A stretch of DNA of 53,199 nucleotides from Oscillospiraceae bacterium. GTDB lineage: Bacteria > Bacillota > Clostridia > Oscillospirales > Oscillospiraceae. Positions 6,843 through 46,717 of the stretch are shown piece after piece. Both the position numbers and the translations under genes were made by a program. The notes under the pieces were generated by a model. It was not told the origin of the DNA. It did no database searches and saw nothing but the letters and a program-made list of their open reading frames with translations. The stretch is from contig JAFQFH010000040.1 in assembly GCA_017398685.1 (NCBI GenBank), forward strand, positions 1-53,199. Direction: 5' to 3'. Positions within the stretch are counted from its first letter, which is position 1, and every line of letters begins with the position of its first letter.

Positions 6843-6871
6843 GATAATACTCCTTTTTTCAGTCTGGTATT

Positions 6872-6900
6872 ATTATAGCAAAGCAAGCCGTCATATTCAA
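6872..6900 (-). promoter_or_regulatory. Promoter of deoC
   Basis: On the minus strand TTGAAT (6900-6895), 17 nt, TATAAT (6877-6872), 30 nt upstream of the deoC start. Confidence 0.75.
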
Positions 6901-6950
6901 GCCGTTGGCGCAATAGATTTAAATATCTTTACGAAAAGGACGGCTTTGAT

Positions 6951-7562: not shown

Positions 7563-7567
7563 TTTTT

Positions 7568-7597
7568 AAAGCAGCTGTCTGAAAGGCAGCTGCTTTT
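7568..7597. terminator. Bidirectional terminator between OB-fold gene and DUF523 gene
   Basis: AAAGCAGCTGTC pairs with GGCAGCTGCTTT around TGAAA, with T-rich flanks on both strands. It separates convergent genes. Confidence 0.85.
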
Positions 7598-7602
7598 AAT
7601 GC

Positions 7603-8040: not shown

Positions 8041-8048
8041 ACCTTGCC

Positions 8049-9136: not shown

Positions 9137-11472
9137 TCTTCTCCCCGCACATTGACCTGCACCTTGCCGTCATGGGCAGAAAGCTCTATGACGCTTGCAT
9201 TCTCGCCGCGCTTTTCGATGACCTTCTGGGCCACCACATCCTCTATCTCCTTCTGGATAAGACGGCGGAGATTTCTTGCGCCGTAGGTGACGGAGTAGCC
9301 GGACTTCACAAGATGGTCGATAAGGCTTTCGTCCCATGTGAGCTTCTTGCCCCGCTCGGAAAGAACATCGGAAAGCTCTTTGAGCATGAGCTTTGCAATG
9401 CCGCGGAAGTTTTCCTCAGTGAGCTGGTTGAAGCAGACCACTTCGTCCACGCGGTTTATAAACTCAGGACGCAGAAATTCGTTGAGGGCTTTCATGCTGC
9501 GCTCCCGGCTCATGTCACCAAGGCTGCCGCCAAAGCCCACGCTGCCGGACTTGTTGTTGGAGCCTGCGTTGGTGGTCATGACGATGATGGTATTTTCAAA
9601 GTTCACGGTTCTGCCCTGGGCATCGGTGATGCGTCCGTCGTCCAGAATCTGGAGAAGAATGTTCATCACGTCGGGGTGGGCCTTTTCTATTTCATCAAAG
9701 AGCACCACGCTGTAGGGCTTGCGGCGTATTTTCTCGGTGAGCTGCCCGGCCTCGTCATAGCCCACGTAGCCGGGAGGCGAACCGATGATGCGGGAGACGG
9801 AGAACTTCTCCATAAACTCGGACATATCAAGGCGGATAAGAGACTCGGGAGAGTCGAACATATCGGCAGCAAGCCGCTTTACAAGCTCGGTCTTGCCCAC
9901 GCCGGTGCCGCCTACGAAAATAAAGCTGACGGGCTTGCGCTTGACCTTAAGGCCCACTCTGCTGCGGCGGATAGCGGCGCATACCGAGTCAATGGCCTCA
10001 TCCTGACCGACAATATGCTCTTTCAGGCGCTCATCCAGCTTTGCAAGGCGCTCAAACTCATCCTCCCGGATACTGGAGGCGGGGATCTTGGTCCACAGCT
10101 CTATGATGCGGGCCAAATTATCCATGCTAAGCTCCGGCTTATCCTTGTGCTTAAGCTCGTTTATCTCCTGCTGGAGCTTCATTTCCTTGCTTCTCAGCTC
10201 CGCTATGCAGGCGTAGCGCTTATCCAGCATTTCATCGGTCATTTCCATGCCGGCGGGGGAATCGGCAGACATGAGCCCCTCCCGCTCAAAGCGGATATTT
10301 TCAAGCTCCCGTTCCTTGAGCATAAGCTTGTTGATGCTCTCGTCCTTCAAATTCACGTCGGAGCAGGCCTCGTCTATAAGGTCGATAGCCTTGTCGGGCA
10401 GGAAGCGGTCTGTGATATAGCGTTCGCTCATCAAAACCGCCTGACGGCACATCTCCTCGGAAATACGCACGCCGTGATATTCCTCATAGTAATGGGCAAT
10501 GCCCTTCAAAATCTCAATGCTGTCCTCAATGGAGGGTTCGTTGACGGTGACAGGCTGGAAGCGGCGCTCAAGAGCGGAGTCCTTTTCTATATGCTTGCGG
10601 TACTCGGTGAAGGTGGTGGCGCCGATGACCTGAATTTCGCCTCTGGAGAGTGCGGGTTTGAGGATGTTGGCGGCGTTCATGCTGCCCTCGGCATCCCCTG
10701 CACCCACTATGTTGTGCACCTCGTCTATGACAAGGATGATATTGCCCTGCTTTCTTATCTCCTCGATAAGACCTTTCATGCGGCTTTCAAACTGGCCGCG
10801 AAACTGAGTGCCCGCTACAAGTGCGGTAAGGTCAAGGAGAAAGACCTGCTTATCCTGAAGCTTGTAGGGTACATTCCCCATGGCAATGCGCTGGGCCAGA
10901 CCCTCGGCGATGGCGGTTTTGCCCACGCCCGGCTCGCCGATGAGGCAGGGATTATTTTTCTGGCGGCGGTTGAGAATCTGGATGACCCGCTCCAGTTCCT
11001 CGCTGCGGCCTATCATGGAGTCCAGCTTGCCTTCCCGGGCTCTTGCAGTCAGGTCGATGCAGTAGTTATCCAGAAACTTCCGCTTGCCCTTGCCATTGTT
11101 GTCCTTGGGCTCGGGTCGGGGCTTATTGTCTGAGGGATGGCTGTTGTCGCTATTTCCGGCAGCGCCGCCGAAAAGACGGGAGAGGAAGGGGAATGTGGCG
11201 GTCTTGCCGTCATCTTCCTCGCTGCCCACATCACCCTCCATGGCCATAAGATCCTCAACTCCGTTCATGGCGTTGAGCATCTCGCCGGAGATATTATCCA
11301 GATCCTCATCTGAAATACCCATGCGGTTTATCACATCATCAACGGGCTTGATGTGCAGCTCTCTGGCGCACTTGAGGCACAGCCCCTCATTTTTCGTCTG
11401 CCCGGCTTCTATCTTGGTTATGAAAATAATTGCTACGTTCTTTCCGCAGCGGGAGCAAAGTGTAGAGCGCAT
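9133..11472 (-). CDS. clpE: ClpE-type ATP-dependent unfoldase with N-terminal zinc finger
   Basis: 779 aa. The N-terminus is a C4 zinc finger (CSRC at 6-9, CLKC at 32-35) in place of the double Clp-N repeat of ClpC, which marks the ClpE type. After an acidic/polar linker (about 70-130) come AAA module 1 (Walker A GEPGVGKT at 179-186), a middle region around 400-470, AAA module 2 (GGTGVGKT at about 530) and the D2-small domain. The loop SVGFGG matches the VGF tripeptide that docks ClpP. It should unfold stress-damaged or tagged proteins for ClpP. RBS GGAG lies 5 nt before the ATG. First of a group of four packed genes; in B. subtilis clpE is CtsR-controlled, but I saw no CtsR-type repeat in the 47 nt upstream. 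Confidence 0.9.
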
Positions 11473-29377: not shown

Positions 29378-32104
29378 TCAATATTTGGGGTATTCAAACT
29401 CTATGGCCATATTGTCCACTATCTGGAATGAACCGTATTTGAGATTTTCCCCGTTGTATGTTACGCCGCTGCAACCGGAAATGCTTATTTCGGGAGTGCG
29501 GCAGTCGTGGATATCACAGTCTGAAAACGCTGCGCCGTCGGTGTCGTAGAGGGCAATTGCACCCTGAGAGCAGTCGTAGATCTCGGTTTTCTCCACGCTC
29601 AGCTTGGTGCAGCCGGAGGCAGAGATGCCCAGTATGCCGCAGCCGTAGAGGCGGCAGTCGGCAATGTCGATGCCGTTGCAGTTCTGGAAGTCCAGCACGC
29701 CGCCGACACATTCGCCGGGCTCTTCGGTGTGGCCTGCTGTGAAGCCGCGGAGGGTGATATTGTCGCAGTTTACAAAGCCGAGGACGTTGGCATATCTGGG
29801 AATGGCGGAGATCACCGCGCCGTCACCCACGATGCTGAGATTTTCAACGCCGGAGATAACAAGACCGGGGCCGTCGTACACATTGAACCAGTAGTAGTTT
29901 TCGTTGCCATAGGCGCCGTAGTCGGAGGCAGTGCTCAGGTCGAAGAGAGGTGCGTTGAGGGTGATGACAGTATTATCGTCAATGGCGGCCAGAAATTCGT
30001 CCACGGTGCTGACTGTGACCTGACGGACACCGTCTGCGTCCACGGTCTCATCAAGCTTCACAGGCTCAGCGGTCTGCGGGCCACTGTAGCTTGCAGCCGC
30101 CTGCTCCATCTCGATAAAGTCCTTCTCGGTAAGCTCCCGTCCTTCTGAATTTACGGGAGGCCGCTTGGGCTGACTACCATCTTCGTAGAGAGCCTTATAG
30201 TGATTCAGGTCAAAGCGGCAGTCTTCCACCGTGACACTGTAGCCCTCGCACCAGAACATAGGCTCGGTGAATACATTTTCCTCAACGTTGCAGCCCAGGA
30301 GACTGACCTGCTGGGAATAGCGGCTGTCAATAAGATGGAGGGCGGTATTGGCAAAGATGTTGCTGTTGACCACAGCAAAGCCGTTGGAGGAGTCCACAGT
30401 GAACACGCTTTGCACCATGCCTTCGCCGCAGTCGTGGATATCGCAGTTTTCAATACGCAGGTCCTGACTGGAAAGAGCGTACACCGCATTCTGGGAGCAC
30501 TCATAAATACTGCATTTATTGGCGTACACGCCCTTGCAGTTCTGGGCAAAGATGCCGATTATGCCGCAGCCGTAGAGATGGCAGGAGTCTATGTAGGTAT
30601 CGTTGCAGTTGTCAAAATACAGCACGCCGCCGGAACAGAAGCCCTGCTTTTCCGTATGGCCTATGACCATGGCCTCAAGATTTATGTTCTTGCAGTTTAC
30701 AAATCTGATGACATTGGCGTAACGGGGTTCGGTGGCTATGGTGGTCTCCTTATAGCTGCCGGTAATGCTCAGGCCGTCCAGACCGGGGATAACAAGCTCA
30801 TAGCCGTCGTAGACCTCTGCCCAGCTGTAGTACTTGCCTTCGGATGTTACACCGTAGTCGGCAGCTTCCGTCAGGTTGTACACGCCCATTGCAAGGCGTA
30901 TCTTTGCGCCGGGGGCAATGGCGGCGAGCAGCTCATCCACGTTGTTTACGATCACCGCGCCGTCCTCAGTGGTGTCAGGCTCTGCGGGCTGGGGGGTGGG
31001 CACGATTTTGGCGGCTGTTTCCACCAGTTCAGGCTCTGACTTTTCTTTTTCGTCCTTTACAGGGCCTGCCACGGCGCCGCAGCCTGCCAGCAAAGCCACG
31101 GACAAAACGATCGCCAGAATGGATACGAATGTTTTCTCTTTGAATTTCATGATTTTGACCAGCCTTTCTTTAAGGTCGCGCTTCTCCGTGGTGAAGGTGG
31201 TGGCCACAATACCGGCAGGCAAACGCCCGGCAGAGGCCAGAGAGATGAGGGTGTCTCCATAGGACTGCTTTTCATCCCTGTCCATCCTTGCTATCAGCAT
31301 TTCGTCACAGCTCAGCTCACAGGCCCGGTTGACCTCCCGGCGCATCAGATAGGCCAGAGGGTTGAACCACTGGGACGAGTACACCGGCACGCTCAGCCAC
31401 TTGTAGGCTATGTCCCGGCGGCGGTAATGCATAAGCTCATGGAGAAATATGTTTTCCAACTGTTCCTGGGTATACTGTGTGTCAGGCAGCACCAGCACAG
31501 GGCGGATAAGCCCCATCAGCATCGGTGTTCTGACGTATTTACTGCGTATAAGTTCCGGCTTTCTGCCCCGTTTTATCCGCTGATAGCAGCGGTTATCGTC
31601 CAGCGTGGGGCGGATACGGCTGCGGCGGATGAGAGAGGCAAAGCGAAGGTAGCCCGATACATAGCGGGCAAGGCTTATTGCAAAGCCCGCAAGCCACAAT
31701 GCAAAAAGAATTTCTTCCCAGGGGAGGCTTCGCAGGGTTTCGGCAAGAGCTAAACCATCTGCATTGCCGGATACTGCCTGCAATGGCAGGGCTTTGCTGT
31801 CATAAGTTCCAACATTTCCTGCACTGGGAAACATGCCCGGCCTTGCGTAGATGCGAAAGTCGCTGTCATGCGTGCTGACGGGGGCCACATACGGAGTCGG
31901 CACAGGGCGGGGCAGCTCCGGCCTGTCCACGGGCAGAACACCGGGTATGGGCAGAGCGAAGCGGAGAAGCACCAAAATCCACAGATAATAATAGGCCGTG
32001 GCGGGCATGGTGCGGAAAAGCACATAGCGCAGGAAAATAAGAAGCAGCACAAGCACGCTGCCGCCAGCAGTGAGCGCAAGAAAAGTATTCAAAAACTCTG
32101 CCAT
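29378..32104 (-). CDS. BlaR1-type M56 metalloprotease fused to two beta-helix domains
   Basis: 908 aa. Residues 1-345 form an M56 membrane protease: helices at about 12-30 and 36-56, a helix near 133-152, HELMH (222-226, zinc and catalytic Glu), CELSCDE (zinc Glu near 263) and a last helix at about 327-345. In BlaR1/MecR1 this domain cuts the BlaI repressor when the external sensor binds ligand. Here the external part is not a penicillin-binding domain but two copies of a right-handed parallel beta-helix (about 385-640 and 690-900) that share YANVxxFVNCxNI, HTExxGxCxGGVLxFxNCN, SCHLYGCGIxGI and NCDIHDC motifs. Such folds bind or cut polysaccharides. The stop of blaI lies one base before this start. 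Ligand unknown. Confidence 0.88.
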   Translation of the reverse strand: MAEFLNTFLALTAGGSVLVLLLIFLRYVLFRTMPATAYYYLWILVLLRFALPIPGVLPVDRPELPRPVPTPYVAPVSTHDSDFRIYARPGMFPSAGNVGTYDSKALPLQAVSGNADGLALAETLRSLPWEEILFALWLAGFAISLARYVSGYLRFASLIRRSRIRPTLDDNRCYQRIKRGRKPELIRSKYVRTPMLMGLIRPVLVLPDTQYTQEQLENIFLHELMHYRRRDIAYKWLSVPVYSSQWFNPLAYLMRREVNRACELSCDEMLIARMDRDEKQSYGDTLISLASAGRLPAGIVATTFTTEKRDLKERLVKIMKFKEKTFVSILAIVLSVALLAGCGAVAGPVKDEKEKSEPELVETAAKIVPTPQPAEPDTTEDGAVIVNNVDELLAAIAPGAKIRLAMGVYNLTEAADYGVTSEGKYYSWAEVYDGYELVIPGLDGLSITGSYKETTIATEPRYANVIRFVNCKNINLEAMVIGHTEKQGFCSGGVLYFDNCNDTYIDSCHLYGCGIIGIFAQNCKGVYANKCSIYECSQNAVYALSSQDLRIENCDIHDCGEGMVQSVFTVDSSNGFAVVNSNIFANTALHLIDSRYSQQVSLLGCNVEENVFTEPMFWCEGYSVTVEDCRFDLNHYKALYEDGSQPKRPPVNSEGRELTEKDFIEMEQAAASYSGPQTAEPVKLDETVDADGVRQVTVSTVDEFLAAIDDNTVITLNAPLFDLSTASDYGAYGNENYYWFNVYDGPGLVISGVENLSIVGDGAVISAIPRYANVLGFVNCDNITLRGFTAGHTEEPGECVGGVLDFQNCNGIDIADCRLYGCGILGISASGCTKLSVEKTEIYDCSQGAIALYDTDGAAFSDCDIHDCRTPEISISGCSGVTYNGENLKYGSFQIVDNMAIEFEYPKY

Positions 32105-32105: not shown

Positions 32106-32480
32106 TCAGTCCTCCACTTTGAACAGCGCCCTCAGCTCGTCAATGTCTCCGTCAGAAAGGCCCTGAGAGTCCACCAGCGCTGCCACCAACGCTGCCGCGC
32201 TGCCCTTGTAGAGCTTATTTATGAGACGTGAGGTGGCCCAAGCGTTATATTCCCTTTCCGATATAAGCGGGCGGTAATAAAATACCTTACGCTTTTCCTG
32301 AGAAATAACCTCCTTATGGACAAGGCGGGAAATGAGGGTTTTTATGGTAGTTGCCTCCCAGCCCATACTGCTTTGCAGTTGTTCACGTATCACAGTGGAC
32401 GTTACAGGCTCCCCCGCTTTCCACAAAAGCTTCATAACTTCAAGTTCAGAATCGGATATACGTTCTGCTAAAATATCCAT
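32106..32480 (-). CDS. BlaI/MecI family repressor
   Basis: 124 aa, the standard BlaI size: winged helix (ISDSELEVMKLLWKAGEPVTSTVIREQL...WEATTIKTLISRLVHKEVISQEKRKVFYY) and a C-terminal dimerisation helix region. ATG at 32480 has GGAGG 5 nt upstream. The adjoining M56 protease is the expected partner that cleaves it to relieve repression. Binding sites are seen on both sides of its promoter. What else it controls is not visible in the window. Confidence 0.93.
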   Translation of the reverse strand: MDILAERISDSELEVMKLLWKAGEPVTSTVIREQLQSSMGWEATTIKTLISRLVHKEVISQEKRKVFYYRPLISEREYNAWATSRLINKLYKGSAAALVAALVDSQGLSDGDIDELRALFKVED

Positions 32481-32497
32481 ATTGACCTCCATCGGTG

Positions 32498-32669: not shown

Positions 32670-33485
32670 CTATTTTCCAAAACTGTTTTTGTTGCAGGAC
32701 CAGAGCAGTGCGCCCAGTCCGGCACCGCCCACAATGTTTCCAAGAGTCACGGGAACAAGGTTTTTTACAGCAAAGTTCAGCCACGTGAGGGCAGAAATAT
32801 CAACACCGGCCTTTGCAGCGGTCTGGGCATAGGCGGGGATGGAGTTTGCAAAAAGGCCTGCGGGTATGTAATACATATTGGCAACGGAGTGCTCAAAGCC
32901 GCAGATAACGAAAATGCACACCGGGAGATAGGCGCCCACAGCCTTGCCCGCAGCGGATTTTGCGGTTACACCGCACACAACCCCAAGGCAGACCAGCGCA
33001 TTACAGAAAATGCCCAGAATAAAGGCGTCAGAAAAGCTCAGCGAGCACTTTGCCGCGGCTGTTTTAATGGTGCTCACGGCAAGTGCGCCGCCAGCCAAGT
33101 CAAATCTTTCCGTCACAACGCAGCACCATGCCACAAGGGCACAGCCCACAAAATTGCCCAGATACACTATAACAAGGTTTCTCAGCATGGAAGATGCCGT
33201 TACCCGCTTTTCAAGCAGGGAAATCGCAATAAGGCAATTGCCGGTGAAAAGCTCGGCGCCGGTGTAGATAATAACGATAAGGCCAAATGCAAAGATAAAG
33301 GCGTTAATAAGCTTTGCAGCCGATACATTTTCAAAAGCAAAGCTTGCCGTGCTGGCAGCAGCGCCGGCAGTGCCGAGGATGAAACCGGACAGCAGCGCCA
33401 AAAGCAAAAGTCTCACTGCGGAGGAGGCGCACTTTGCTTTGCCTGCGTTGGAGTAGGTTTCTATAAATTCACTGGGTTTGAGCAT
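32670..33485 (-). CDS. Formate/nitrite transporter family channel
   Basis: 271 aa, the normal FNT length, with six membrane helices. Conserved segments: LLALLSGFILGTAGAAASTA, TGAELFTGNCLIA (omega loop and filter), VIYLGNFVGCALVAW, GIFCNALVCLGVVCG and GFEHSVANMYYIPAG (filter His). It moves formate, nitrite or hydrosulfide anions across the membrane. In this organism formate export fits, and formate also feeds the fhs gene of the purine operon downstream, but that link is inference. Single gene with its own promoter. Confidence 0.93.
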   Translation of the reverse strand: MLKPSEFIETYSNAGKAKCASSAVRLLLLALLSGFILGTAGAAASTASFAFENVSAAKLINAFIFAFGLIVIIYTGAELFTGNCLIAISLLEKRVTASSMLRNLVIVYLGNFVGCALVAWCCVVTERFDLAGGALAVSTIKTAAAKCSLSFSDAFILGIFCNALVCLGVVCGVTAKSAAGKAVGAYLPVCIFVICGFEHSVANMYYIPAGLFANSIPAYAQTAAKAGVDISALTWLNFAVKNLVPVTLGNIVGGAGLGALLWSCNKNSFGK

Positions 33486-33677: not shown

Positions 33678-33708
33678 AAAGGCACATAAAATCAATACTT
33701 GAGGTAGC

Positions 33709-33837
33709 TTGGCTCTGACGGTTAAACAAGGTTTTTCCCTTGTCCAAAGTGGAGCACCACGTGAACCAAACTATCATAACCTGCCGACCGTCTGGGCGTA
33801 CTCAATGCTTTTTCAAGTGATGAGTGCGCCTTTTTTT
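33709..33837 (+). promoter_or_regulatory. ZTP (pfl) riboswitch with terminator, upstream of purE
   Basis: Matches the ZTP aptamer plan: P1 arm GGCTC (33711-33715) pairing with GAGC (33732-33735 region onward), the internal-loop strand TGACGGTTAAAC, a P2 hairpin ACAAGG/CCTTGT, the GTGGAGC return strand, and the 3' core CCGACCGTCTGGGC ending at 33797. ACGGT (33718-33722) and ACCGT (33787-33791) can form the pseudoknot. The GGC of CTGGGC is also the first part of a 10-bp terminator stem (33795-33804 with 33821-33830) followed by seven T. Ligand binding should therefore block the terminator and switch the operon on when ZTP/ZMP builds up, that is when 10-formyl-tetrahydrofolate is short. Confidence 0.87.
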
Positions 33838-33859
33838 AATTATGAAGGAGGATAATGCC

Positions 33860-34342
33860 GTGAAGAAAGTCGGAATAATCATGGGAAGTGACAGCGATCT
33901 GCCCGTTGTGGGCAAGGCCGCTGATGTTCTCAAGGAGTTTGGCGTACCCTATGAGATGCACATCTACTCTGCCCACCGTACCCCCGTGGAGGCAAGAGAT
34001 TTCTGCGTGAACGCAAGAGCCAATGGCTTCGGCGTTATCATCGCCGCCGCCGGTATGGCAGCTCATCTTGCCGGTGCAATGGCAGCAGGAACCACCCTGC
34101 CTGTTATCGGCATCCCCATCAAGTCCGCCCAGTTAGGCGGCATGGACGCACTGCTGTCCACCGTGCAGATGCCATCCGGCATCCCCGTCGCCACTGTAGC
34201 CATTGACGGCGCAAAGAACGCCGGTATGCTGGCTGTGGAGATGCTTTCCATCGCTGACGATGCTCTGGCTGAGAAGCTGGACGCTTATCGTATAAAAATG
34301 ACAGAAGAAGTACTCAACAAAGACAGAAAGCTCAACAATTGA
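33860..34342 (+). CDS. purE: N5-carboxyaminoimidazole ribonucleotide mutase
   Basis: 160 aa class I Pur[26 protein letters not shown] (active-site His) and [24 protein letters not shown]. It converts N5-CAIR to CAIR. Start GTG at 33860 chosen because GGAGG is 8-9 nt upstream; the in-frame ATG at 33842 would put that RBS inside the gene. No purK is found next to it, so CAIR precursor formation is either elsewhere or non-enzymatic at high CO2. First gene of the operon behind the riboswitch. Confidence 0.96.
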
Positions 34343-34361
34343 GAAAATGGAGGAGAAAAGA

Positions 34362-35039
34362 ATGGAACTCGTTTACACTGGAAAAACCAAGAATGTCTAC
34401 GCACTTGAAAACGGCAACGCTCTTTTGAAGTTCAAGGATGACTGCACCGGTAAAGACGGCAAGTTCGATCCGGGCGAAAACGCTGTGGGTCTGACCATTG
34501 AAGGCGTCGGCCTTGTCAACCTCCGCATGTCCGTGTACTTCTTTGAAAAGCTCAAAGAGGCCGGCATAAAGACCCATTATGTCAGCGCAAACCTTGATGA
34601 CTGCACCATGGAAGTTCTCAACGCCCGCGTTTTCGGTCACGGTCTTGAGGTTATCTGCCGCTGCAAGGCAGTGGGCAGCTTCATCCGCCGCTACGGTGAC
34701 TATATCGAGTCCGGCGAAGACCTGCCCTACTATGTTGAGACCACCTTCAAAAATGACGAGAAGGGCGATCCCCTGGTTACCAAGGACGGCCTTGTGGCTC
34801 TGGGCGTTATGAGCGATGAGCAGTATGACTCCCTCAAGGAGCAGACCCAGCGCATCACAAAGATAGTCGCCGATGAGATGGCAAAGCGCGGCATGGAGCT
34901 TTACGACATCAAGTTTGAGTTTGGCTACGTGGGCGACGAGGTCATCCTTATCGATGAGATCGCATCCGGCAACATGAGAGTTTACAAGGACGGCGAGTAT
35001 GTCGATCCCATGACTCTCTCCGAGCTGTTCTTTGCATAA
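34362..35039 (+). CDS. purC: SAICAR synthetase
   Basis: 225 aa, the bacterial length. ATP-dependent joining of aspartate to [37 protein letters not shown] at the start, [14 protein letters not shown], and [19 protein letters not shown] near the end. ATG at 34362 has GGAGGAG 6 nt before it; the upstream ATG (34347) spans that site. Stop overlaps the purF start by one base. Confidence 0.97.
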
Positions 35040-36460
35040 TGGGCGGTTTCTTCGGAGCGGTTTCCCGCCGCGATGTGGTTCTGGATGTGTTTTTCGGCGT
35101 TGACTACCACTCTCACCTTGGCACAAGACGCGCCGGTATGGTGGTATTCGATAAGGAAAAGGGCTTCCAGAAAGAAATACACAGGATAGACAATTCCCCC
35201 TTCCGCACCAAGTTTGAGCCGGATCTGCCCGGTTTCTCCGGCTGCAGCGCCATCGGCTGCATAAGCGACTTTGACCCCCAGCCCCTTATGGTGCGTTCAC
35301 CTCTCGGCCTTTACGCCATATCCATGATAGGTGTAATAAACAATGCCGACGAGCTTATTGAAAAATACTTTTCCCAGAATGGCACCCAGTTTATGGCCAT
35401 GAGCAACGGCGGCGTAAACTCTGTTGAGCTGCTGGCCGCCCTCATAAACCAGAAAAGTTCTCTGGTGGAGGGCATACGCTACGCTCAGGACATAATTGAC
35501 GGCTCCGCCACCATCCTCATTCTCAACGAGGACGGCATAATCGCCGCCCGTGACAAGATGGGCAGACTGCCCGTGCTGGTAGGCCGGGACGAAAACGGCT
35601 ACTGCGTTTCCTTTGAGTCTTTTGCCTATCACAAGCTGGGCTATGATGATGAGCACGAGCTTGGCCCCCAGGAGATAGTGCAGATAAGCGCCGAGGGCTG
35701 GAAGACCCTTTCTCCCGCAGGGGACAAGATGCGTATCTGCTCCTTCCTCTGGACCTATTACGGCTACCCCAACTCCAATTACGAGGGCAAAAACGTTGAG
35801 GTCATGCGCTGCCGCAACGGTGAGATCATGGCCAGAGACGACATGGAAAAGGGCAGAATGCCTGAGGTTGATTGTGTTGCGGGTGTGCCTGACTCCGGCG
35901 TGCCCCACGCCATCGGCTATGCAAACCAAAGCCATACCCGCTTCGCCCGTCCCTTCGTGAAATACACCCCCACCTGGCCCCGCTCCTTTACCCCTGCAAA
36001 TCAGGAAGTGAGAAATCAGGTGGCCAAGATGAAGCAGATCCCCGTGCCTGAGCTTATTGAGGGCAAGAAACTTCTTTTCGTGGACGACTCCATCGTCCGC
36101 GGCACCCAGCTTCAGGAAACTGTTGAGTTTCTCTACAGCAGCGGTGCCAAGGAAGTGCATATGCGCTCGGCCTGCCCTCCTGTTATGTATGGCTGCAAGT
36201 ACCTCAATTTCTCCCGCAGCAACTCCGACATGGAGCTTCTGACTCGCCGTATGATTCAGGAGCTGGAGGGCAACGCCGGTCAGCGCCATCTGGACGAGTA
36301 CGCCGATGCCTCCACTGAGCGTGGCCAGTGCCTGCTCAAGACCATCAGCGAAAAGCTGGGCTTTTCTTCCCTTGGCTATCAGAGTCTGGACGGACTTCTG
36401 GAGGCTATCGGCATCGACCCTGAAAAGCTCTGCACCTACTGCTGGACGGGTAAAGAATAA
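35039..36460 (+). CDS. purF: PurF-family amidophosphoribosyltransferase lacking the N-terminal Cys
   Basis: 473 aa. The PRTase domain has the PRPP loop LLFVDDSIVRGTQ (about residues 346-358), and four cysteines in the places used for the 4Fe-4S cluster of B. subtilis PurF (ICSF, PPVMYGC, and the C-terminal LCTYC). The glutaminase domain keeps its fold (SHLGTRRAGM) but begins MGGFFG where active enzymes have MCG: the nucleophilic Cys is Gly. It starts directly on the purC stop (TAATG), so no alternative start can restore a Cys. PurF-like proteins of this form are known in Clostridia and Bacteroidota. It may use free ammonia, or a partner glutaminase, or have a different role. Encoded in the expected place of purF. 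Confidence 0.85.
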   Translation: MGGFFGAVSRRDVVLDVFFGVDYHSHLGTRRAGMVVFDKEKGFQKEIHRIDNSPFRTKFEPDLPGFSGCSAIGCISDFDPQPLMVRSPLGLYAISMIGVINNADELIEKYFSQNGTQFMAMSNGGVNSVELLAALINQKSSLVEGIRYAQDIIDGSATILILNEDGIIAARDKMGRLPVLVGRDENGYCVSFESFAYHKLGYDDEHELGPQEIVQISAEGWKTLSPAGDKMRICSFLWTYYGYPNSNYEGKNVEVMRCRNGEIMARDDMEKGRMPEVDCVAGVPDSGVPHAIGYANQSHTRFARPFVKYTPTWPRSFTPANQEVRNQVAKMKQIPVPELIEGKKLLFVDDSIVRGTQLQETVEFLYSSGAKEVHMRSACPPVMYGCKYLNFSRSNSDMELLTRRMIQELEGNAGQRHLDEYADASTERGQCLLKTISEKLGFSSLGYQSLDGLLEAIGIDPEKLCTYCWTGKE

Positions 36461-36493: not shown

Positions 36494-37534
36494 ATGGAAA
36501 AGAGTCATTCCGCTTCCTACGCTGCCGCCGGTGTGGATATTACCGCCGGTTACAAGGCAGTTGAGCTTATGAAAAGCCATATAGCCCGCACCCTCACACC
36601 CGGTGTCTGCTCCGACGTGGGCGGCTTCGGCGGTCTTTTCGAGTTGGACGTGAAGGGCATGGAAAAGCCTGTTCTCGTCTCCGGCACCGATGGCGTGGGC
36701 ACAAAGCTTAAGATGGCTTTCCTCATGGACAAGCATGACACCGTGGGTATTGACTGCGTGGCCATGTGCGTGAACGATATCATCTGCTCCGGCGCAAAGC
36801 CCCTTTTCTTCCTTGACTATATCGCCTGCGGCAAGAATGTGCCTGAGCGCATTGCCCAGATAGTCTCCGGCGTGGCAGAAGGCTGCGTGCAGAGCGGCGC
36901 TGCCCTCATCGGCGGCGAGACTGCTGAAATGCCCGGCTTCTACCCTGTGGATGAGTACGATCTTGCCGGTTTTGCAGTGGGCATCGTGGATAAGTGCAAG
37001 GTGCTGGACAACTCCGCCATGTGCGAGGGCGACATCGTTATCGCCCTGCCCTCCAGCGGCGTGCACTCCAACGGCTTTTCCCTTGTGAGAAAGGTCTTTG
37101 ATGTGGAAAATGCCGACATAAAGACTCCTCTTGCAGAGCTTTCCGGCAAGAGCGTGGGTGAAACCCTGCTCACCCCCACCAAGATATACGTAAAGCCGGT
37201 TATGGCCCTTGTTGAGAAAATAAAGGTCAAGGGCATCTCCCACATCACCGGCGGCGGCTTCTATGAGAATATCCCCAGAAGCATCCCCGAGGGTCTGGGC
37301 GCTGTGATAGATAAAAATGCCATCCGCGTGCTGCCCATTTTTGACCTTATTGCCAAGGTGGGCAATATCCCTGAGCGTGATATGTTCAACACCTTCAACA
37401 TGGGCGTTGGCATGAGCATCGTGGTAGCCGCCGAGGACGCTGACAAGGCTCTTGAGATCCTCCGCAGCGAGGGTGAGGACGCCTACGTTATCGGCCACAT
37501 TGAGAAGATGGAAGACAAGGTGCGCATATGCTGA
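36494..37534 (+). CDS. purM: Phosphoribosylformylglycinamidine cyclo-ligase
   Basis: 346 aa AIR synthetase: [50 protein letters not shown] and [13 protein letters not shown]. Closes the imidazole ring with ATP. Overlaps purN by 7 nt. Confidence 0.97.
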
Positions 37535-38142
37535 AAGCCAAGATTGCCGTGCTGGTATCCGGCGGCGGCACAAATTTGCAGGCCCTTATTGACAGCGAAA
37601 AGTCCGGCGTTCTCAAAAGCGGTGAGATAGTGCTGGTGATATCCAACTCTGCCTCCGCCTATGCTCTTGAAAGGGCAAAAAATGCCGGTATCGAGAGTGC
37701 GGTGCTTTTAAAGAAAGAGCTTGGCTCTCAGGAAGCCTTTGAGGAGGCCCTTATAAAGCTTCTGGACGAAAAGGGCATTGAGCTTATCGTGCTTGCAGGC
37801 TTTATGAGCATACTGAGTGAAAAATTCACAAGCCACTATGAAAACCGCATCATAAATGTGCACCCCTCACTTATTCCTTCCTTCTGCGGCAAGGGCTTTT
37901 ACGGCCTTCGCGTGCACGAAGCCGCCCTTGAGTACGGCGTGAAGGTAACGGGCGCTACCGTACACTTTGTAAACGAAATCCCCGACGGGGGCAAGATAAT
38001 AATGCAGAAGGCCGTCTCCATCCTCCCCGGCGACACTGCGGAAGTTCTCCAGAAGCGTGTCATGCAGGAGGCCGAGTGGGAGATACTGCCAATGAGTGCA
38101 GAGCTGGTCTGCGCTGAAATGATAAAAACAAGAGGTGTTTGA
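37528..38142 (+). CDS. purN: Phosphoribosylglycinamide formyltransferase
   Basis: 204 aa: [15 protein letters not shown] (phosphoribosyl loop), [20 protein letters not shown] (active-site His) and [14 protein letters not shown] (catalytic Asp). Uses 10-formyl-tetrahydrofolate, supplied by fhs at the end of the same operon. Its stop is one base before the next gene. Confidence 0.96.
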
Positions 38143-38143
38143 G

Positions 38144-38863
38144 ATGGATATATACAAGATAAACTCCATAGAGGAACTTATTTCCGGCAACCCCTACGTA
38201 GGCCGCGGCATCGTCATTGGCAAGACCCCTGACGCAAAGCACGCCGCCATCGCCTATTTCATCATGGGCCGCAGCGCAAACAGCCGCAACAGAGTTTTCA
38301 CCGTGAAAAACGGCGAAGTCTTTACCGAACCCTTTGACGCCTCCAAGGTGGAAGACCCCAGCCTCATTATCTACGCCGCAGTACGCAGCTTTGAAAATAA
38401 GCTCATCGTCACCAACGGCGACCAGACCGATACCATCGTTGAAGGTCTCAAGGTCGGTATGAGCTTTTCCAAGGCACTCAACCAGCGTAAGTTTGAGCCT
38501 GATGCTCCCAACCTGACCCCCCGCATCAGCGGCATGCTCAGCTTTGAAAACGGCGACTTTGAGTACAAGATAAGCATCCTCAAGAGCGCCGATGCTGAGG
38601 GCACTGCCTGCAACCGCTACACCTTCGCCTACGAGCCCATTGCCGGTCTGGGTCACTTTATCCACACCAATGTCACCGACGGCAACCCCATCCCCACCTT
38701 CCAGGGCGAGCCTGAGCGCATGGCCATGGACAACGATATCGACGTTTTCACCAATGCCATCTGGGAAAATCTGGACGAGAACAACAAGATATCCCTCTAC
38801 ACCCGCTACATCGACCTTGCCACAGGCGAGTATGATGAGCGCCTGATAAATAAAAATATATAA
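38144..38863 (+). CDS. purO: IMP cyclohydrolase, PurO-like
   Basis: 239 aa. Begins MDIYKINSIEELISGNPYVGRGIVIG and has AYFIMGRSANSRNRVF and DPSLIIYAAVRSF, features of the archaeal-type IMP cyclohydrolase family that is also found in Clostridia. It closes FAICAR to IMP, the last step of the pathway, normally the N-terminal half of PurH. ATG at 38144 has GAGG 8 nt upstream. Sits directly before the stand-alone transformylase, so the two replace bifunctional PurH. Confidence 0.88.
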   Translation: MDIYKINSIEELISGNPYVGRGIVIGKTPDAKHAAIAYFIMGRSANSRNRVFTVKNGEVFTEPFDASKVEDPSLIIYAAVRSFENKLIVTNGDQTDTIVEGLKVGMSFSKALNQRKFEPDAPNLTPRISGMLSFENGDFEYKISILKSADAEGTACNRYTFAYEPIAGLGHFIHTNVTDGNPIPTFQGEPERMAMDNDIDVFTNAIWENLDENNKISLYTRYIDLATGEYDERLINKNI

Positions 38864-38873: not shown

Positions 38874-40049
38874 ATGAAAGAGCTTGAACTGAAATACGGC
38901 TGCAACCCCAACCAGAAGCCCTCCCGCATTTTCGTAAAGGACGGCGAGCTGCCCATCACCGTTTTAAACGGCAAGCCCGGCTACATCAATCTGCTGGACG
39001 CATTCAACTCCTGGCAGCTGGTGCGTGAGCTGAAAGAGGCCACCGGCCTTCCCTCTGCCGCCTCCTTCAAGCACGTCTCTCCCGCAGGCGCAGCCGTTGG
39101 TCTGCCCCTGAGCGAGACTGACAAGAAAATATACTTTGTGGACGAGAACGCAGAGCTCTCTCCCATCGCCTGCGCATACATCCGCGCCCGCGGCGCTGAC
39201 CGTCTGTGCTCCTTTGGCGACTGGGCAGCTCTCTCCGACACCTGCGACGCTGCCACCGCCATGTACCTTAAGTACGAAGTTTCTGACGGCATCATCGCCC
39301 CCGACTACACTGAAGAAGCCCTTGAGATTCTCAAGACCAAGAAAAAGGGCGGCTACAACGTTGTGAAGATAGACCCCGACTTTGTCCCCGCCGCCACCGA
39401 GTGCAAGGACGTTTTCGGCGTCACCTTCGAGCAGGGCAGAAACAATTTCAATATAGACCGGGAGCTTCTGTCCAACATCGTTACCAAGAATAAGGAGCTT
39501 ACCGATGCCGCCGCAATCGACATGATGGTAGCCCTTATCACCCTTAAATATACCCAGTCCAACTCCGTGTGCTATGTTAAGGACGGTCAGGCCATCGGCG
39601 TGGGCGCAGGCCAGCAGAGCCGCATCCACTGCACCCGCCTTGCAGGCGACAAGGCCGACAAGTGGTATCTGAGACAGCATCCCATGGTGCTGGGGCTTGA
39701 GTTTGTGGACGATATCCGCCGTCCCGACCGTGACAATGCCATCGATATCTACACCTCCAACGAGTACATGGACGTGCTGGAAGAGGGCGAGTGGCAAAAG
39801 GTATTCAAGGTCAAGCCCGAAATTCTCACCGAGGACGAGAAAAAGCGCTGGATTGCCACCCAGAGTGGTGTGACCGTGGGCTCTGACGCATTCTTCCCCT
39901 TTGGCGACAATGTAAAGCGCGCCTACAAGAGCGGTGTAAAGTACATCGCCGAGCCCGGTGGCAGCATCCGCGACGACAACGTTATCGAGACTGCCGACAG
40001 CTATGACATGGTCATGTCCTTCACCGGCATGCGCCTGTTCCACCATTAA
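38874..40049 (+). CDS. Stand-alone AICAR transformylase
   Basis: 391 aa. Corresponds to the AICAR transformylase half of PurH alone: ELKYGCNPNQKPSRI, LPSAASFKHVSPAGAAVG (active-site Lys-His), RGADRLCSFGDWAALSD, SNSVCYVKDGQAIGVGAGQQSRIHCTRLAG and SDAFFPFGDNV. Formylates AICAR (ZMP) with 10-formyl-tetrahydrofolate; its substrate is the ligand class sensed by the ZTP riboswitch of this operon. RBS AAGGAG. Confidence 0.92.
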   Translation: MKELELKYGCNPNQKPSRIFVKDGELPITVLNGKPGYINLLDAFNSWQLVRELKEATGLPSAASFKHVSPAGAAVGLPLSETDKKIYFVDENAELSPIACAYIRARGADRLCSFGDWAALSDTCDAATAMYLKYEVSDGIIAPDYTEEALEILKTKKKGGYNVVKIDPDFVPAATECKDVFGVTFEQGRNNFNIDRELLSNIVTKNKELTDAAAIDMMVALITLKYTQSNSVCYVKDGQAIGVGAGQQSRIHCTRLAGDKADKWYLRQHPMVLGLEFVDDIRRPDRDNAIDIYTSNEYMDVLEEGEWQKVFKVKPEILTEDEKKRWIATQSGVTVGSDAFFPFGDNVKRAYKSGVKYIAEPGGSIRDDNVIETADSYDMVMSFTGMRLFHH

Positions 40050-40060: not shown

Positions 40061-41335
40061 ATGAAGCTTCTTGTTGTTGGCGGCGGCGGCCGCGAGCACG
40101 CTATTATAAAAAAGCTCAAAGAAAACCCTGAAGTTACCCAAATATTTGCCCTGCCCGGCAACGGCGGTATTGCCGCCGACGCCAGCTGCGTCAATATCGG
40201 CGCAAAGGACATTGAGGGCATCGTGAAATTCGCCGTGGAAAATCAGGTGGATTACGCCGTTGTAGCCCCTGACGATCCTCTGGTGCTGGGCGCAGTGGAC
40301 GCACTCAGTGAGGTGGGTATACCCTGTTTTGGCCCAAATAAGGCCGCTGCCATCATCGAGGGCAGCAAGGTCTTTTCCAAAAACCTTATGAAAAAGCACG
40401 GTATCCCCACCGCAGCTTATGAGACCTTTACCGATGCCGAGGCCGCGCTTGAGTACCTTGAAAGCGCCAATATGCCCATCGTTGTAAAGGCTGACGGGCT
40501 TGCGCTGGGCAAGGGCGTTATCATCGCCCAGACCCGAGAGGAAGCAAAAGAGGCTGTCCGCTCCATGATGCTGGAGGGCATGTTCGGAAAAAGCGGCTCT
40601 CAAGTGGTCATTGAGGAGTTTCTGACAGGCCCCGAAGTCTCTGTTCTGGCCTTTACGGACGGAGAGTATCTTGTGCCCATGGTTTCCTCCATGGACCACA
40701 AGCGCGCCTTTGACAATGACGAAGGCCTCAACACTGGCGGCATGGGCACCGTTGCCCCCAATCCCTACTACACTGAGAGCATAGCAAAAGAGTGCATGGA
40801 GACTATCTTCATGCCCACCATAAAGGCTATGAAAGCTGAAGGCCGTCCCTTCAAGGGCTGCTTGTACTTTGGTCTTATGCTCACCCCCAATGGCCCGAAG
40901 GTAATAGAGTATAACTGCCGCTTCGGCGACCCTGAAACTCAGGTCGTGCTGCCCCTGCTGGAAAGCGATCTTCTCACTGTGATGCAGGCCACCACCAACG
41001 GCACTCTCGCCGATACCGAGGTCAAGTTTGGCAATAAGAACGCCTGCTGTGTCATCATGGCCTCCAAGGGCTATCCCCAGAGCTACGAAAAGGGCTTTGA
41101 GATGACTATCGGTGAAGAGGCAGTGGAGCATGCCTATGTTGCAGGCGCAAAGCTTGAAGCGGGAAAGCTCCTTACCAACGGCGGCCGCGTTATCGGCCTG
41201 ACCGCAGTTGAAGATACTCTTGAAAAGGCTATAGAGAGCGCATACAGGCTGGTGGAAAAGGTGCATTTTGACAACGCCTTCTACCGCCATGATATCGGCC
41301 AGCGGGCCATGAAAGCATTCAAGGAGGTAAAGTGA
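40061..41335 (+). CDS. purD: Phosphoribosylamine--glycine ligase
   Basis: 424 aa ATP-grasp enzyme: KLLVVGGGGREHAI, VKADGLALGKGVI, EEFLTGPEVSVLAF and NTGGMGTVAPNPYY. Makes GAR from phosphoribosylamine. RBS AAGGAG. Its stop overlaps the purL ATG by one base. Confidence 0.97.
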   Translation: MKLLVVGGGGREHAIIKKLKENPEVTQIFALPGNGGIAADASCVNIGAKDIEGIVKFAVENQVDYAVVAPDDPLVLGAVDALSEVGIPCFGPNKAAAIIEGSKVFSKNLMKKHGIPTAAYETFTDAEAALEYLESANMPIVVKADGLALGKGVIIAQTREEAKEAVRSMMLEGMFGKSGSQVVIEEFLTGPEVSVLAFTDGEYLVPMVSSMDHKRAFDNDEGLNTGGMGTVAPNPYYTESIAKECMETIFMPTIKAMKAEGRPFKGCLYFGLMLTPNGPKVIEYNCRFGDPETQVVLPLLESDLLTVMQATTNGTLADTEVKFGNKNACCVIMASKGYPQSYEKGFEMTIGEEAVEHAYVAGAKLEAGKLLTNGGRVIGLTAVEDTLEKAIESAYRLVEKVHFDNAFYRHDIGQRAMKAFKEVK

Positions 41336-44300
41336 TGGTATACCGGGTATTTGTTGAAAAGAAAAAAGAGCTTGCCCACGAGGCCAGAAACCTCCTTGAG
41401 GATCTGAGAAGCCTTTTGAAGATTGAGGCTCTTGAGGAGCTTCGCATAGTTAACCGCTATGACCTTGAGAACATAAGCGAAGAGCTTTTTGACTACGCTG
41501 TAAAAACCGTTCTCAGCGAGCCCCAGCTTGATAATGTATGCTTTGAGCTCAATGGCGAGGGCTACACCCTTTTCGCCGTGGAGTATTTGCCCGGTCAGTT
41601 CGACCAGAGAGCCGACTCCGCCGCCCAGTGCATCCAGATAATTTCTCAGGCACAGCGCTGCGAGGTACGTACCGCTAAGGTCTACATGCTCAAGGGCGCA
41701 CTTTCCGACAGCGAGATAAGGGAAATCAAAAAGTACGTCATCAACCCCGTTGAGGCCCGCGAGGCCGCAATGGAGAAGCCTGAGACCTTGCTTATAAACT
41801 ACGATATCCCCACCACTGTTGAGACCCTTGAGGGCTTCACCGCCCTTTCCCGGGATGAACTTGCTGAGTTTATCCGCAATTACGGTCTTGCAATGGATAT
41901 TGACGATATTTCCTTCTGTCAGGAGTATTTTGTCAGCGAAAAGCGTGAGCCCACTATCACCGAGATCCGCATGATCGACACCTATTGGTCCGATCACTGC
42001 CGCCACACCACCTTCACCACCACTCTGGACAAGGTCAGCTTTGAAGATGAGCTTATCCAGAGCGCCTATGAGGAGTATATCGCCACACGCGAAGCCCTCA
42101 AGCGCACAAAGCCTGTGAACCTCATGGATCTTGCCACTATCGCTGTGCGCCACCTCAAGAAGGCCGGAAAGCTTTCCAAGCTTGATGAGTCCGAGGAGAT
42201 AAATGCCTGCACCGTGAAGATAAACGTGGATGTGGACGGTGTTACCGAGCCCTGGCTGCTGCTTTTCAAGAACGAGACTCATAACCATCCCACCGAGATA
42301 GAGCCCTTTGGCGGTGCTGCCACCTGCATTGGCGGCGCTATCCGCGACCCTCTGTCCGGCCGCTCCTACGTTTACGGCGCAATGCGCGTCACCGGTGCTG
42401 CCGACCCCTTAAAGCCCGTCAGCGAGACCCTTGAGGGCAAGCTGCCTCAGAGAAAGCTTGTGACTACTGCTGCCGCAGGCTATTCCTCCTACGGCAACCA
42501 GATCGGTCTTGCCACCGGCATTGTGGATGAGCTTTATCACCCCGGCTACGCTGCAAAGCGCATGGAGATAGGCGCAGTCATCGCTGCCGCTCCCGCTGAG
42601 AACGTCCGCCGTAAGCGCCCCGAGGACGGAGACGTGGTCATCCTCCTCGGCGGACGCACAGGCCGCGACGGCTGCGGCGGTGCTACCGGTTCTTCCAAGA
42701 GCCACACTGTCGAGTCCCTTGAAAGCTGCGGCGCAGAGGTGCAGAAGGGCAACGCCCCCGAGGAGCGCAAGCTCCAGCGCCTTTTCCGCAACGGCGAGGC
42801 ATGCCGCATGATAAAGCGCTGCAATGACTTTGGCGCAGGCGGCGTGTCTGTTGCCGTAGGTGAGCTGGCCGACGGTCTTGAGATAGACCTGAACGCTGTT
42901 ACCAAGAAGTACGACGGTCTGGACGGTACTGAGCTTGCTATCAGCGAGTCTCAGGAGCGTATGGCTGTTGTAATAGAAAAAGAAAATATTGAGCGCTTCA
43001 TGGCCCTTGCCGAAAGCGAGAACCTTGAGGCTACCGTTATCGCAAAGGTCACCGAGCAGCCCCGTCTGGTCATGCACTGGAACGGCAAGAAGATCGTGGA
43101 CATAAGCCGCGAATTTCTCAACTCCAACGGTGCTGAAAAGCACGCTGTTGCCCATGTTGCAAAAGCCGAGGGCTTTGAAAAAGCAGCTCCTGTGAGCTTC
43201 ACCGAAGGTATGCGCGCTCTGGCATCCGACCTGAACGTTTGCTCCAAGCGCGGCCTTTCCGAGCGATTTGACTCCACCATCGGTGCGGGCACTGTGCTCA
43301 TGCCCTTTGGCGGCAGAAATCAGCACACCCCCATTCAGGCCATGGTGCACAAGATATCCGTTGAGAAAAAGCACACTGATGACTGCTCACTTATGGCATG
43401 GGGATACAATCCCTTCATCAGCGAAAAGAGCCCATTCCACGGCGCATACCTTGCCGTTGTGGAGTCTGTGAGCAAGCTGGTTGCCACGGGCGCAAAGTTT
43501 GAGGATGTGTACCTTACCTTCCAGGAGTATTTTGAGAGACTCCGCAAAGAGCCTGAACGCTGGGGCAAGCCTCTGGCAGCCCTGCTGGGTGCTTTCCGCG
43601 CCCAGATGGAGCTGGGCATCGGCGCCATCGGCGGTAAAGACTCCATGAGCGGCTCTTTCGAGAGCATGGATGTGCCTCCCACCCTCGTCTCCTTCGCTGT
43701 CACCACCGAGAAGGTGGACAAGATAGTCCCAAACCACTTAAAGAAGTCCGGCAACAAGCTGGTGCTTATTGTTCCCGAGTATGACGAGGCAGGACTTCCC
43801 AAGGCCGAGAGCCTTATGAAGGTCTTTGACGAAGTCCACGCACTTCTCTCCTCCGGCAAGGCCGTCAGCGCCTACACTCCCACCTACGGCGGTGTTGCCG
43901 AGGCCGTCATGAAGATGAGCTTTGGTGAGATGCTGGGTGTGGACTTTGACGAAAATCTCAGCCTCGATGAACTTTTTGGCTACTGCTACGGCGCATTTCT
44001 GCTGGAAGTGCAGGGAGATGTGAATGTCGGCAAGCTTATCGGCACTGTTACCGACAAAGCTGAAATAGGCTACAAGGGCGAAAGCCTTGCTCTCAATGAG
44101 CTGCTGGGCATCTACGAAGGCAAGCTGGAGAGTGTATACTCCTGCAACATTCCCACCGTGGGCAAGAAGATAGAGCTTTTCTCCTATGAGAACACTGAGC
44201 GTCAGGCACCCGCCGTCAAGGTGGCCCGTCCCAGGGTGCTCATCCCCGTGTTCCCCGGCACCAACTGCGAGTTTGACTCCGCCAAGGTCATGCGTGATGC

Positions 44301-45027
44301 GGGAGCTGAGCCTGAGATAATGGTCATCAACAACCTGACATCCGAGGGCATTGCCCGCAGTGTGGAGAGCTTTGCAAGTGAGCTCAAGACCGCCCAGATG
44401 ATATTCATTCCCGGCGGCTTCTCCGGCGGCGACGAGCCGGACGGCTCCGGCAAGTTCATCACTGCCTTCTTCCGCAACGCTGCCGTCAAGGATGGCGTGA
44501 CGGAGCTTCTTGAAAAGCGCGACGGCCTTATCCTTGGTATCTGCAACGGCTTCCAGGCCCTTATCAAGCTGGGTCTTGTGCCCTACGGCAAGATCATCGA
44601 CACCGATGAAAGCTGCCCCACTCTGACCTTCAACACCATTGCCCGCCATCAGTCCCGCATCGTGCGCGTGCGCGTGGCCTCCAACAAGAGTCCCTGGCTC
44701 TATGACACCAATGTGGGCGATATCTACTCCGTGCCTATCTCCCATGGCGAAGGCCGCTTCATAGCAAGCGAGGAGCTGGTGCGTCAGCTCGCTGCCAATG
44801 GTCAGATATGCACCCAGTACGTTGACCTTGAAGGTCAGCCCACCGACGATGTGCACTTCAACCCCAACGACTCCGTGTTCGCTATCGAGGGCATCTGCTC
44901 TCCCGATGGCAGAGTCTTCGGCAAGATGGGCCACGCAGAGCGTATAGGCAACGGTCTTTACAGGAACGTTCCCGGCGAGTATGACATGAAGATGTTCGCC
45001 TCCGCAGTCAAGTACTTTAAAAACTGA
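41335..45027 (+). CDS. purL: Phosphoribosylformylglycinamidine synthase, single-chain
   Basis: 1230 aa, one-chain FGAM synthase with linker, two AIRS-like halves ([33 protein letters not shown] near residue 310) and a C-terminal class I glutaminase (about 960-1230: [23 protein letters not shown] with the nucleophilic Cys, ISHGEGRF). So this operon's second glutamine-using enzyme has an intact glutaminase, unlike its PurF. ATG at 41335 has AGGAGG 7 nt upstream; the GTG at 41332 is less likely. Confidence 0.97.
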
Positions 45028-45043: not shown

Positions 45044-46717
45044 ATGGCATGGCTTACTGATATAGAGATCGCCCAGAAATGCGAGATGAAGCCCATTTTT
45101 GAGGTGGCAAAGACCGCAAATATCGACGAGAAATATATTGAGCAGTACGGTCGCTACAAAGCCAAGATAGACCTCTCCCTCCTGAAGGAGAGCACTGCCC
45201 AGGACGGCAAGCTCATCCTTGTCACCGCCATCACCCCCACCCCCGCAGGTGAGGGCAAGACCACCACTTCCGTGGGTCTGGCTGACGGACTTCGCAAAAT
45301 AGGCAAAAACTCCATTGCCGCCCTGCGTGAGCCTTCTCTGGGCCCTGTGTTCGGCATCAAGGGCGGCGCTGCCGGCGGCGGCTACGCTCAGGTAGTGCCT
45401 ATGGAGGACATAAACCTCCACTTCACCGGCGACTTCCACGCCATCGGCGCTGCAAACAATCTGCTGGCTGCTATGCTGGATAACCACATCCAGCAGGGCA
45501 ACAGCCTTGGCATAGACCCCAAACAGATCACATGGAAGCGCGCCGTTGACATGAACGACAGGCAGCTTCGCCACATTGTAAACGGTCTTGGCGGCAGACT
45601 TCAGGGCGTACCCCGTGAGGACGGCTTTGACATCACCGTGGCCTCTGAGATCATGGCAGTTCTCTGCCTTGCAGCGGACATTACCGATCTCAAGCGCCGC
45701 CTTGCCTCCATCATCGTGGGCTACACCTACGAGGGCAAGAGCGTCACTGCCCACGACCTGAAGGCCGAGGGCGCAATGGCAGCCCTCCTCAAGGACGCAC
45801 TCAAGCCCAATCTGGTGCAGACCCTTGAGGGTACTCCCACCTTCATCCACGGCGGCCCCTTTGCAAATATCGCCCACGGCTGCAACTCCATAATCGCCAC
45901 CCGCATGGCTCTCAAGCTTGGTGACTATGTTGTGACCGAGGCCGGCTTTGCCGCAGACCTTGGCGCTGAGAAGTTCCTTGACATCAAGTGCCGCATGGCA
46001 GGGCTCAAGCCCTCCGCCGTCGTTGTTGTGGCCACTGTCCGCGCTCTCAAGTACCACGGCGGCGTTGCCAAGGCCGAGCTTAACAACGAAAATCTTGAAG
46101 CCCTTGAAAAGGGTCTGCCCAACCTTCTGCAGCACGTGGACAACATAAAGAATGTCTACGGTCTGCCCTGCGTTGTGGCTATAAACGCATTCCCCACCGA
46201 CACCAAGGCCGAGCTTGATATGGTAGAGGCTAAGTGCAATGAGCTGGGCGTGAACGTTGCCCTCTCCGAAGTCTGGGCCAAGGGCGGCGAAGGCGGCATG
46301 GCTCTTGCAGAAGAGGTCGTGCGTCTGTGCGAGCAGCCCAGTGATTTCCGCTTCTGCTACGAGGACGAGCTGAGCATAAGCGAAAAGCTCAACGCCATTG
46401 CCACAAAGATCTACCACGCCGACGGTGTTGACCTTGTGGGCAACGCTGTAAAGCAGCTCAAGCAGCTTGAAGACATGGGCTTTGGCTCCATGCCCATCTG
46501 CATGGCAAAGACCCAGTACAGCTTCTCCGATGATGCCACCAAGCTGGGCGCGCCCCGTAACTTCCGCATCAGCGTGCGTAACCTGAAAGTCAGCGCCGGC
46601 GCAGGCTTCATCGTTGCCCTCACCGGCGACATCATGACCATGCCCGGCCTGCCCAAGTCTCCCGCAGCAGAGCGTATAGACGTGGACGAAAACGGCGTTA
46701 TCAGCGGACTGTTTTGA
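45044..46717 (+). CDS. fhs: Formate--tetrahydrofolate ligase
   Basis: 557 aa, the normal length. ATP loop [14 protein letters not shown] (about residues 66-79), [39 protein letters not shown]. Makes 10-formyl-tetrahydrofolate from formate for PurN and the AICAR transformylase. Ends the operon. Having it under the same ZTP switch gives direct feedback on one-carbon shortage. Confidence 0.97.

Follow-up and report, generated by a model that had tools for sequence, protein, structure and literature searches.

Cys-less PurF homologues of Clostridia as probable ammonia-dependent PRPP aminotransferases

Purine synthesis is generally held to begin with a step that depends on glutamine. In E. coli, replacement of Cys1 of PurF by Ala or Ser abolishes the use of glutamine and leaves that of ammonia (Mei and Zalkin 1989, as cited in PMC3261824). 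The PurF-independent routes to phosphoribosylamine (PRA) known in Salmonella had all fallen short of what purine synthesis requires (PMC3485032). Natural Cys-less homologues, named PurF', have been described in crenarchaea, near purine genes or purF (Brown et al. 2011, PMC3261824), and their authors put forward the use of ammonia as a hypothesis. All the crenarchaea of that study possess, in addition, a PurF with the Cys. On bacterial Cys-less PurFs, we found no literature in a search by title and abstract opening, in which subscription journals were thinly covered.

Here, we describe a Cys-less PurF homologue from an Oscillospiraceae genome, encoded in a stretch of 53,199 nucleotides that was analyzed as a whole (the window), together with its relatives, a clade to which we give the name PurF*. 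Like the crenarchaeal PurF', PurF* has no N-terminal Cys and has purine genes nearby, and it would work as the authors who described PurF' proposed. Unlike PurF', which occurs beside a Cys-bearing PurF, PurF* had no ordinary PurF for company in 26 of 392 genomes, as far as could be found, and was accompanied by one in 81. There is also a resemblance to the Cys1-mutant E. coli PurF, in the loss of glutamine use (predicted for PurF*) and in the use of ammonia (proposed), but the latter is a laboratory mutant with the rest of its glutamine site intact, whereas the site of PurF* is dismantled. Ammonia use has already been proposed for PurF', and PurF* differs in that a Cys-less protein is the only PurF found in some of its genomes.

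The purF* gene and its operon

The features of the locus are collected in Table 1. The closest solved structures to the window protein by sequence are those of B. subtilis PurF (1ao0 and 1gph), and the similarities to ordinary PurFs of this type (TIGR01134) comprise the alignment of both regions of the protein, the PRPP loop, the four Fe-S cysteines, and the position in the operon. The differences are the lack of Cys1, R26, R72-Y73, and N102, an Asp127 retained in only 2 of 158 sequences, and a score of about half of the cut-off of the NCBIfam purF equivalog. Identity to 28 ordinary PurFs of the fetched loci is 27 to 32%. A structure model made from an 11-sequence alignment had a mean pLDDT of 64.2 in the PRPP domain, too poor for use.

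The original prediction, that a PurF in the purine operon has Gly in place of the catalytic Cys and that its start is fixed by the overlap with purC, was borne out on both counts. The protein begins with MGGFFG, and Gly or Ser occupies this position in all 158 homologues. The start codon overlaps the purC stop as TAATG (35037 to 35041), and the 27 in-frame open codons upstream include no ATG, GTG, or TTG, which excludes, for these three codons, a longer purF* that would bear the Cys; a misread start was therefore ruled out. A decaying gene was likewise discarded by dN/dS values of 0.07 to 0.14 in pairwise comparisons with three relatives, and purF* is a gene under purifying selection.

Upstream of the window's purine operon and on the opposite strand, there is a gene for a FocA-like formate transporter (32670 to 33485), which, with the ZTP riboswitch of the leader and the formate--tetrahydrofolate ligase gene, fits a folate/formate-linked purine operon. 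The window also codes for a 908-aa BlaR1-type membrane sensor/peptidase (29378 to 32104, minus strand), followed by two repeats that look by eye like a parallel beta helix, and for an adjoining BlaI/CopY-type repressor (32106 to 32492).

Association with purine genes extends to other members of the clade. Among 120 loci (80 named and 40 fetched), purine genes lie within 400 bases of PurF* on both sides in 76, on one side in 11, and on neither in 33. The named loci, which are the best 80 of 594, include purM in 64 cases and an ordinary purF in 7. The single-contig genome G247 has a ten-gene run, purE-C-F*-M-N-O-B-AICARFT-D-L, with PurF* as the sole PurF found. A similar operon, purE-F*-M-N-O-AICARFT-D-L with a ZTP riboswitch ahead, occurs in the isolate Evtepia gabavorous. 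Some PurF* operons contain the short divergent PurC and others an ordinary PurC, with neither at some loci. At two loci, PurF* follows a CarB-like ORF (named by eye), by 31 bases in L182 (genome G177, 4592 to 9260) and by 17 bases in L211 (genome G208, 4481 to 9135).

TABLE 1 Coordinates of the purine operon and of the purF* sites in the window
Feature	Position	Strand	Evidence or conservation
ZMP/ZTP riboswitch, purine operon leader, before purE	33701..33804	+	Rfam RF01750, 43.8 bits, gathering 39
purE ORF	33824..34342	+	TIGR01162 199.5 bits, cut-off 149.6
purC, short divergent form (230 aa)	34347..35039	+	TIGR00081 110.8 bits, below cut-off 189.9
purF* (Cys-less PurF homologue)	35039..36460	+	ATG start, 473 aa, N-terminus MGGFFG; TIGR01134 176.8 bits, cut-off 350
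Gly2 codon at catalytic Cys position	35042..35044	+	Gly 156/158, Ser 2/158 PurF*; Cys 30/30 ordinary PurF
DYHSHLGT, in place of HRGQ region of glutamine site	35102..35125	+	near-invariant in PurF*
Cys234, putative Fe-S ligand	35738..35740	+	aligns with B. subtilis PurF C236; 158/158
VPDSG of phosphoribosyltransferase site	35885..35899	+	P, D, S in 158/158 PurF*
KYTPTWPRSF, altered phosphoribosyltransferase-domain loop	35960..35989	+	PurF*-specific invariants Y309 T310 P311 T312 W313
DDSIVRGT PRPP loop (residues 349-356)	36083..36106	+	7/8 positions 158/158; Ile 157/158, one Val
Cys386, putative Fe-S ligand	36194..36196	+	aligns with B. subtilis PurF C382; 158/158
CTYC (C465 and C468), putative Fe-S ligands	36431..36442	+	align with B. 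subtilis C437, C440; 155/158, 3 gaps
purM	36494..37534	+	TIGR00878 450.2 bits
purN	37528..38142	+	TIGR00639 204.8 bits
purO-type IMP cyclohydrolase	38135..38863	+	PF07826 200 bits
Stand-alone AICAR formyltransferase	38874..40049	+	NF005492 713.3 bits
purD, enzyme next after PRA formation	40061..41335	+	TIGR00877 529.5 bits
purL with fused glutaminase domain	41332..45027	+	TIGR01857 1874.2 bits; TIGR01737 (PurQ-type), residues 971-1227
Formate--tetrahydrofolate ligase, gene right after purL	45044..46717	+	NF010030 944.4 bits

Glutamine and PRPP sites

The two domains were compared in an alignment of 158 distinct PurF* sequences (186 matches, of which one truncated was dropped and duplicates were merged to 157, plus the window protein P0001) with 30 ordinary PurFs (29 from the fetched loci, left from 37 matches after removal of truncated ones and duplicates, plus that of B. 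subtilis). The ordinary positions C1, R26, R72-Y73, and N102 are lost in all 158 PurF* sequences and Asp127 in 156; from R26 to D127, these are residues that we take to be the glutamine-binding ones of PurF. The Arg of the HRGQ motif (R26) is Leu throughout, a gap stands opposite Arg72-Tyr73 in every sequence, and Asn102 is replaced by Val, Ile, Thr, or Ala. Residues of the glutamine domain that are still kept are His25 (158/158) and Gly103 (155/158). Use of another Cys of this domain as the nucleophile is unlikely, as the best conserved ones, C74 (142/158) and C189 (136/158), are not invariant.

On the other side of the protein, the PRPP loop and the four Fe-S cysteines (C234, C386, C465, and C468) are kept, as had been noted for the window protein, and the ordinary positions P281-D282-S283, K305, R311, F313, R321, and K328 are also found in 158/158 PurF* sequences. 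A further 43 positions are conserved in at least 98% of PurF* and in at most 10% of ordinary PurFs, including most of DYHSHLGT and part of KYTPTWPRSF. Together with the losses in the glutamine site, they mark PurF* as a distinct protein and not as an ordinary PurF minus one residue.

Amidotransferases split into separate subunits are known, HisFH and PdxST being examples. With this precedent, a separate glutaminase could hand ammonia to PurF*, and glutamine would then remain the cellular donor. The domain that was once the glutaminase is still conserved and has an invariant motif of its own, which could be a docking face, and the carbamoyl-phosphate-synthase-like ORFs (by eye) that precede PurF* in L182 and L211 would also suit such a partner. 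However, the genes on both sides are purine genes at the majority of loci (the 76 of 120 given above), no shared glutaminase was recognized by eye among the flanking ORFs of 24 loci, and the sole other match to the PurF model in the window's genome (E ≤ 1) is a 532-aa ORF of the size of AsnB. We consider a glutaminase partner unlikely.

Occurrence with and without ordinary PurF

A branch with an SH-aLRT support of 100 divides the two sets in a tree built from 52 PurF* sequences and 10 ordinary PurFs, and PurF* is a clade separate from ordinary PurF, as judged from these sequences. A profile (A1) built from 11 sequences was run on 392 genomes of the class, for which a completeness of at least 95% was asked, except that the window's own genome (G000, 94.43%) was included. 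It detected PurF* in 109 of them, and in 20 of 299 genomes sampled across the phylum, a sample that shares members with the class set. Among the best 80 of 594 named records, those from Clostridia include Flavonifractor, Intestinimonas, Agathobaculum, Evtepia, and Frisingicoccus, and those from outside the class include Adlercreutzia, Collinsella, Olsenella, and Thermophilibacter.

In the same 392 genomes, TIGR01134 had a match in 338 at E ≤ 1e-36, with 310 over the cut-off. Crossing both surveys divides the 109 PurF* genomes into 26 with PurF* only, 81 with both proteins, and two others, G183, in which PurF* is accompanied by a fragmentary ordinary PurF, and G283, in which PurF* is split across two contigs and TIGR01134 has no match at E ≤ 1e-36. 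The 26 PurF*-only genomes are spread over 15 family codes. If all 109 had an ordinary PurF, incompleteness would be expected to hide about 2.06 of them (from rounded completeness values) versus the 26 observed. On a tree of these 26 genomes and 26 of those with both, the two states changed at least 15 times, so ordinary PurF has been lost or gained repeatedly.

When the threshold was relaxed to E ≤ 0.01, the PurF*-only genomes other than G000 (25 genomes) yielded neither an ordinary PurF that passed the cut-off nor a recognizable fragment of one, and the same was true of Adlercreutzia equolifaciens DFI.6.87 and Evtepia gabavorous KLE1738. The idea of a hidden long PurF of a different type was rejected: the 15 matches that start at model position 1 (606 to 687 aa) look like GlmS, and the 10 of them that were scanned all score as GlmS. 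The shorter matches resemble the AsnB or glutamate synthase types, judged by length only. In addition, a 241-aa ORF of G184 gives a very weak match (E 0.005) at the PRPP region, and G456 and G459 have short matches to the PurF N-terminus.

The window's own genome is less conclusive. A second, Cys-containing PurF in the rest of the genome, the obvious check on the original prediction, was sought in G000 and not found, the 532-aa ORF being the only candidate at E ≤ 1. This metagenome-assembled genome (MAG) also lacks a match to GlmS and a clear PurB (two matches to the PurB model look by eye like argininosuccinate lyase and fumarase), which are probably assembly gaps. As the MAG is incomplete and these two are missing, the absence of a second PurF says little by itself.

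An ordinary PurF missed by the MAG would make PurF* a second isozyme in this organism. Besides the gaps just described, the genus offers some ground for it, with G012 and G025 having ordinary PurF and no PurF*, and G016, G022, and G028 having both. Against this, in 10 of 13 same-genus genomes with at least 90% completeness and at most 5% contamination, a set to which the window's own belongs, PurF* is present and nothing scores above the cut-off as an ordinary PurF, though G023 carries at a contig edge a 49-position piece resembling the end of an ordinary PurF. Single-contig G247, from a different family, had no ordinary PurF at E ≤ 0.01 either. A missed copy is, in our estimation, quite improbable. 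Of the other three among the 13, G012 has the ordinary protein only, and G026 and G032 have neither. The ordinary PurF of G016 (G016:C9:2276-3619), a genome in which PurF* is present, has two internal stops, which could reflect a decaying copy or a fault of binning or sequencing.

Of the 26 PurF*-only genomes, 25 carry purD, the gene for the step after PRA formation, and G241 gave no match. All five further PurF* genomes in which no ordinary match passed the cut-off, including those of Adlercreutzia and Evtepia, carry it as well. In contrast, among 20 genomes that had no PurF match (out of 54 of this kind), none had purD over the cut-off, G093 having a purD fragment. As for PurF* in the 26 genomes, 8 have it in a purine operon with purM, 4 have it with purC and/or purB, and in 14 it stands apart, as judged within the stretch read, some of these stretches ending at contig edges. 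Directly upstream of these 14 genes there is no Rfam riboswitch, and a scan of 20 loci of the stand-alone type (13 of the 14 among them) with a PurR-box pattern gave 6 matches versus 4.7 in shuffled sequences, that is, no signal.

These figures bear on whether PurF* could be a regulatory or structural partner of ordinary PurF that makes no PRA. The 81 of 109 genomes with both proteins would agree with such a role, as would the adjacency of both genes in G053, G401, G431, G360, and G210. A partner of this kind is nevertheless very unlikely, because 26 of the 109 genomes yielded no ordinary PurF and 25 of these still have purD, and because all 158 sequences retain the PRPP site.

Proposed function and significance

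An intact PRPP site, a dismantled glutamine site, and the finding of no other PurF make an ammonia-dependent PRPP aminotransferase the simplest reading of PurF*, and we regard this function as likely on the evidence of sequence and gene content. The C-terminal phosphoribosyltransferase domain would bind PRPP and make PRA from free NH3, both the product and the donor being what we infer from the conserved site and the genes around it. The N-terminal domain would keep its place in the protein with no hydrolysis of glutamine, and the old glutaminase domain may now serve structure, allostery, or ammonia entry. PurF* alone would carry out the first purine step in the genus of the window and in scattered other lineages, and elsewhere it occurs alongside ordinary PurF. 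An ammonia enzyme by itself does not account for the 81 of 109 genomes that have both.

Among the three explanations that came with the original prediction, ammonia use is thus the best supported. That of a regulator beside another PurF fared badly, given that 26 of 392 genomes have PurF* only, 25 of them with purD, and as for a separate glutaminase, none was seen recurring beside the gene. Least probable of all, and hardly to be expected, is a role for PurF* outside purine synthesis, in which a group different from NH3 would be transferred to PRPP, an idea that would suit the rebuilt KYTPTWPRSF loop, the 43 positions near-invariant in PurF* only, and the copies that stand alone on the chromosome, but that is at odds with the purine genes on both sides at 76 of 120 loci and with the need of PurF*-only genomes for a source of PRA.

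A wider scenario can be put forward tentatively, its chances falling a little short of even. The clade, which is widespread in anaerobic bacteria (in Clostridia, with members in Coriobacteriia), would have a glutamine-independent committed step of purine synthesis, in which NH3 is placed onto PRPP. The dead glutamine pocket, rebuilt around DYHSHLGT, together with the rebuilt KYTPTWPRSF loop, might form a new site for ammonia entry or allostery, and several lineages would then have dropped their ordinary PurF.

The bacteria in which PurF* is the only PurF found probably make their purines straight from free ammonia. The PurF*-only genomes would also offer a clean test of the question raised by the crenarchaeal PurF', namely, whether a Cys-less PurF uses ammonia, since in them no ordinary PurF confounds the answer. 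Should PurF* be the sole first-step enzyme in some gut anaerobes, their purine synthesis would track ammonia instead of glutamine. Predictions of pathways and of auxotrophy would then fail for such anaerobes, as would expectations of how glutamine analogues act on them.
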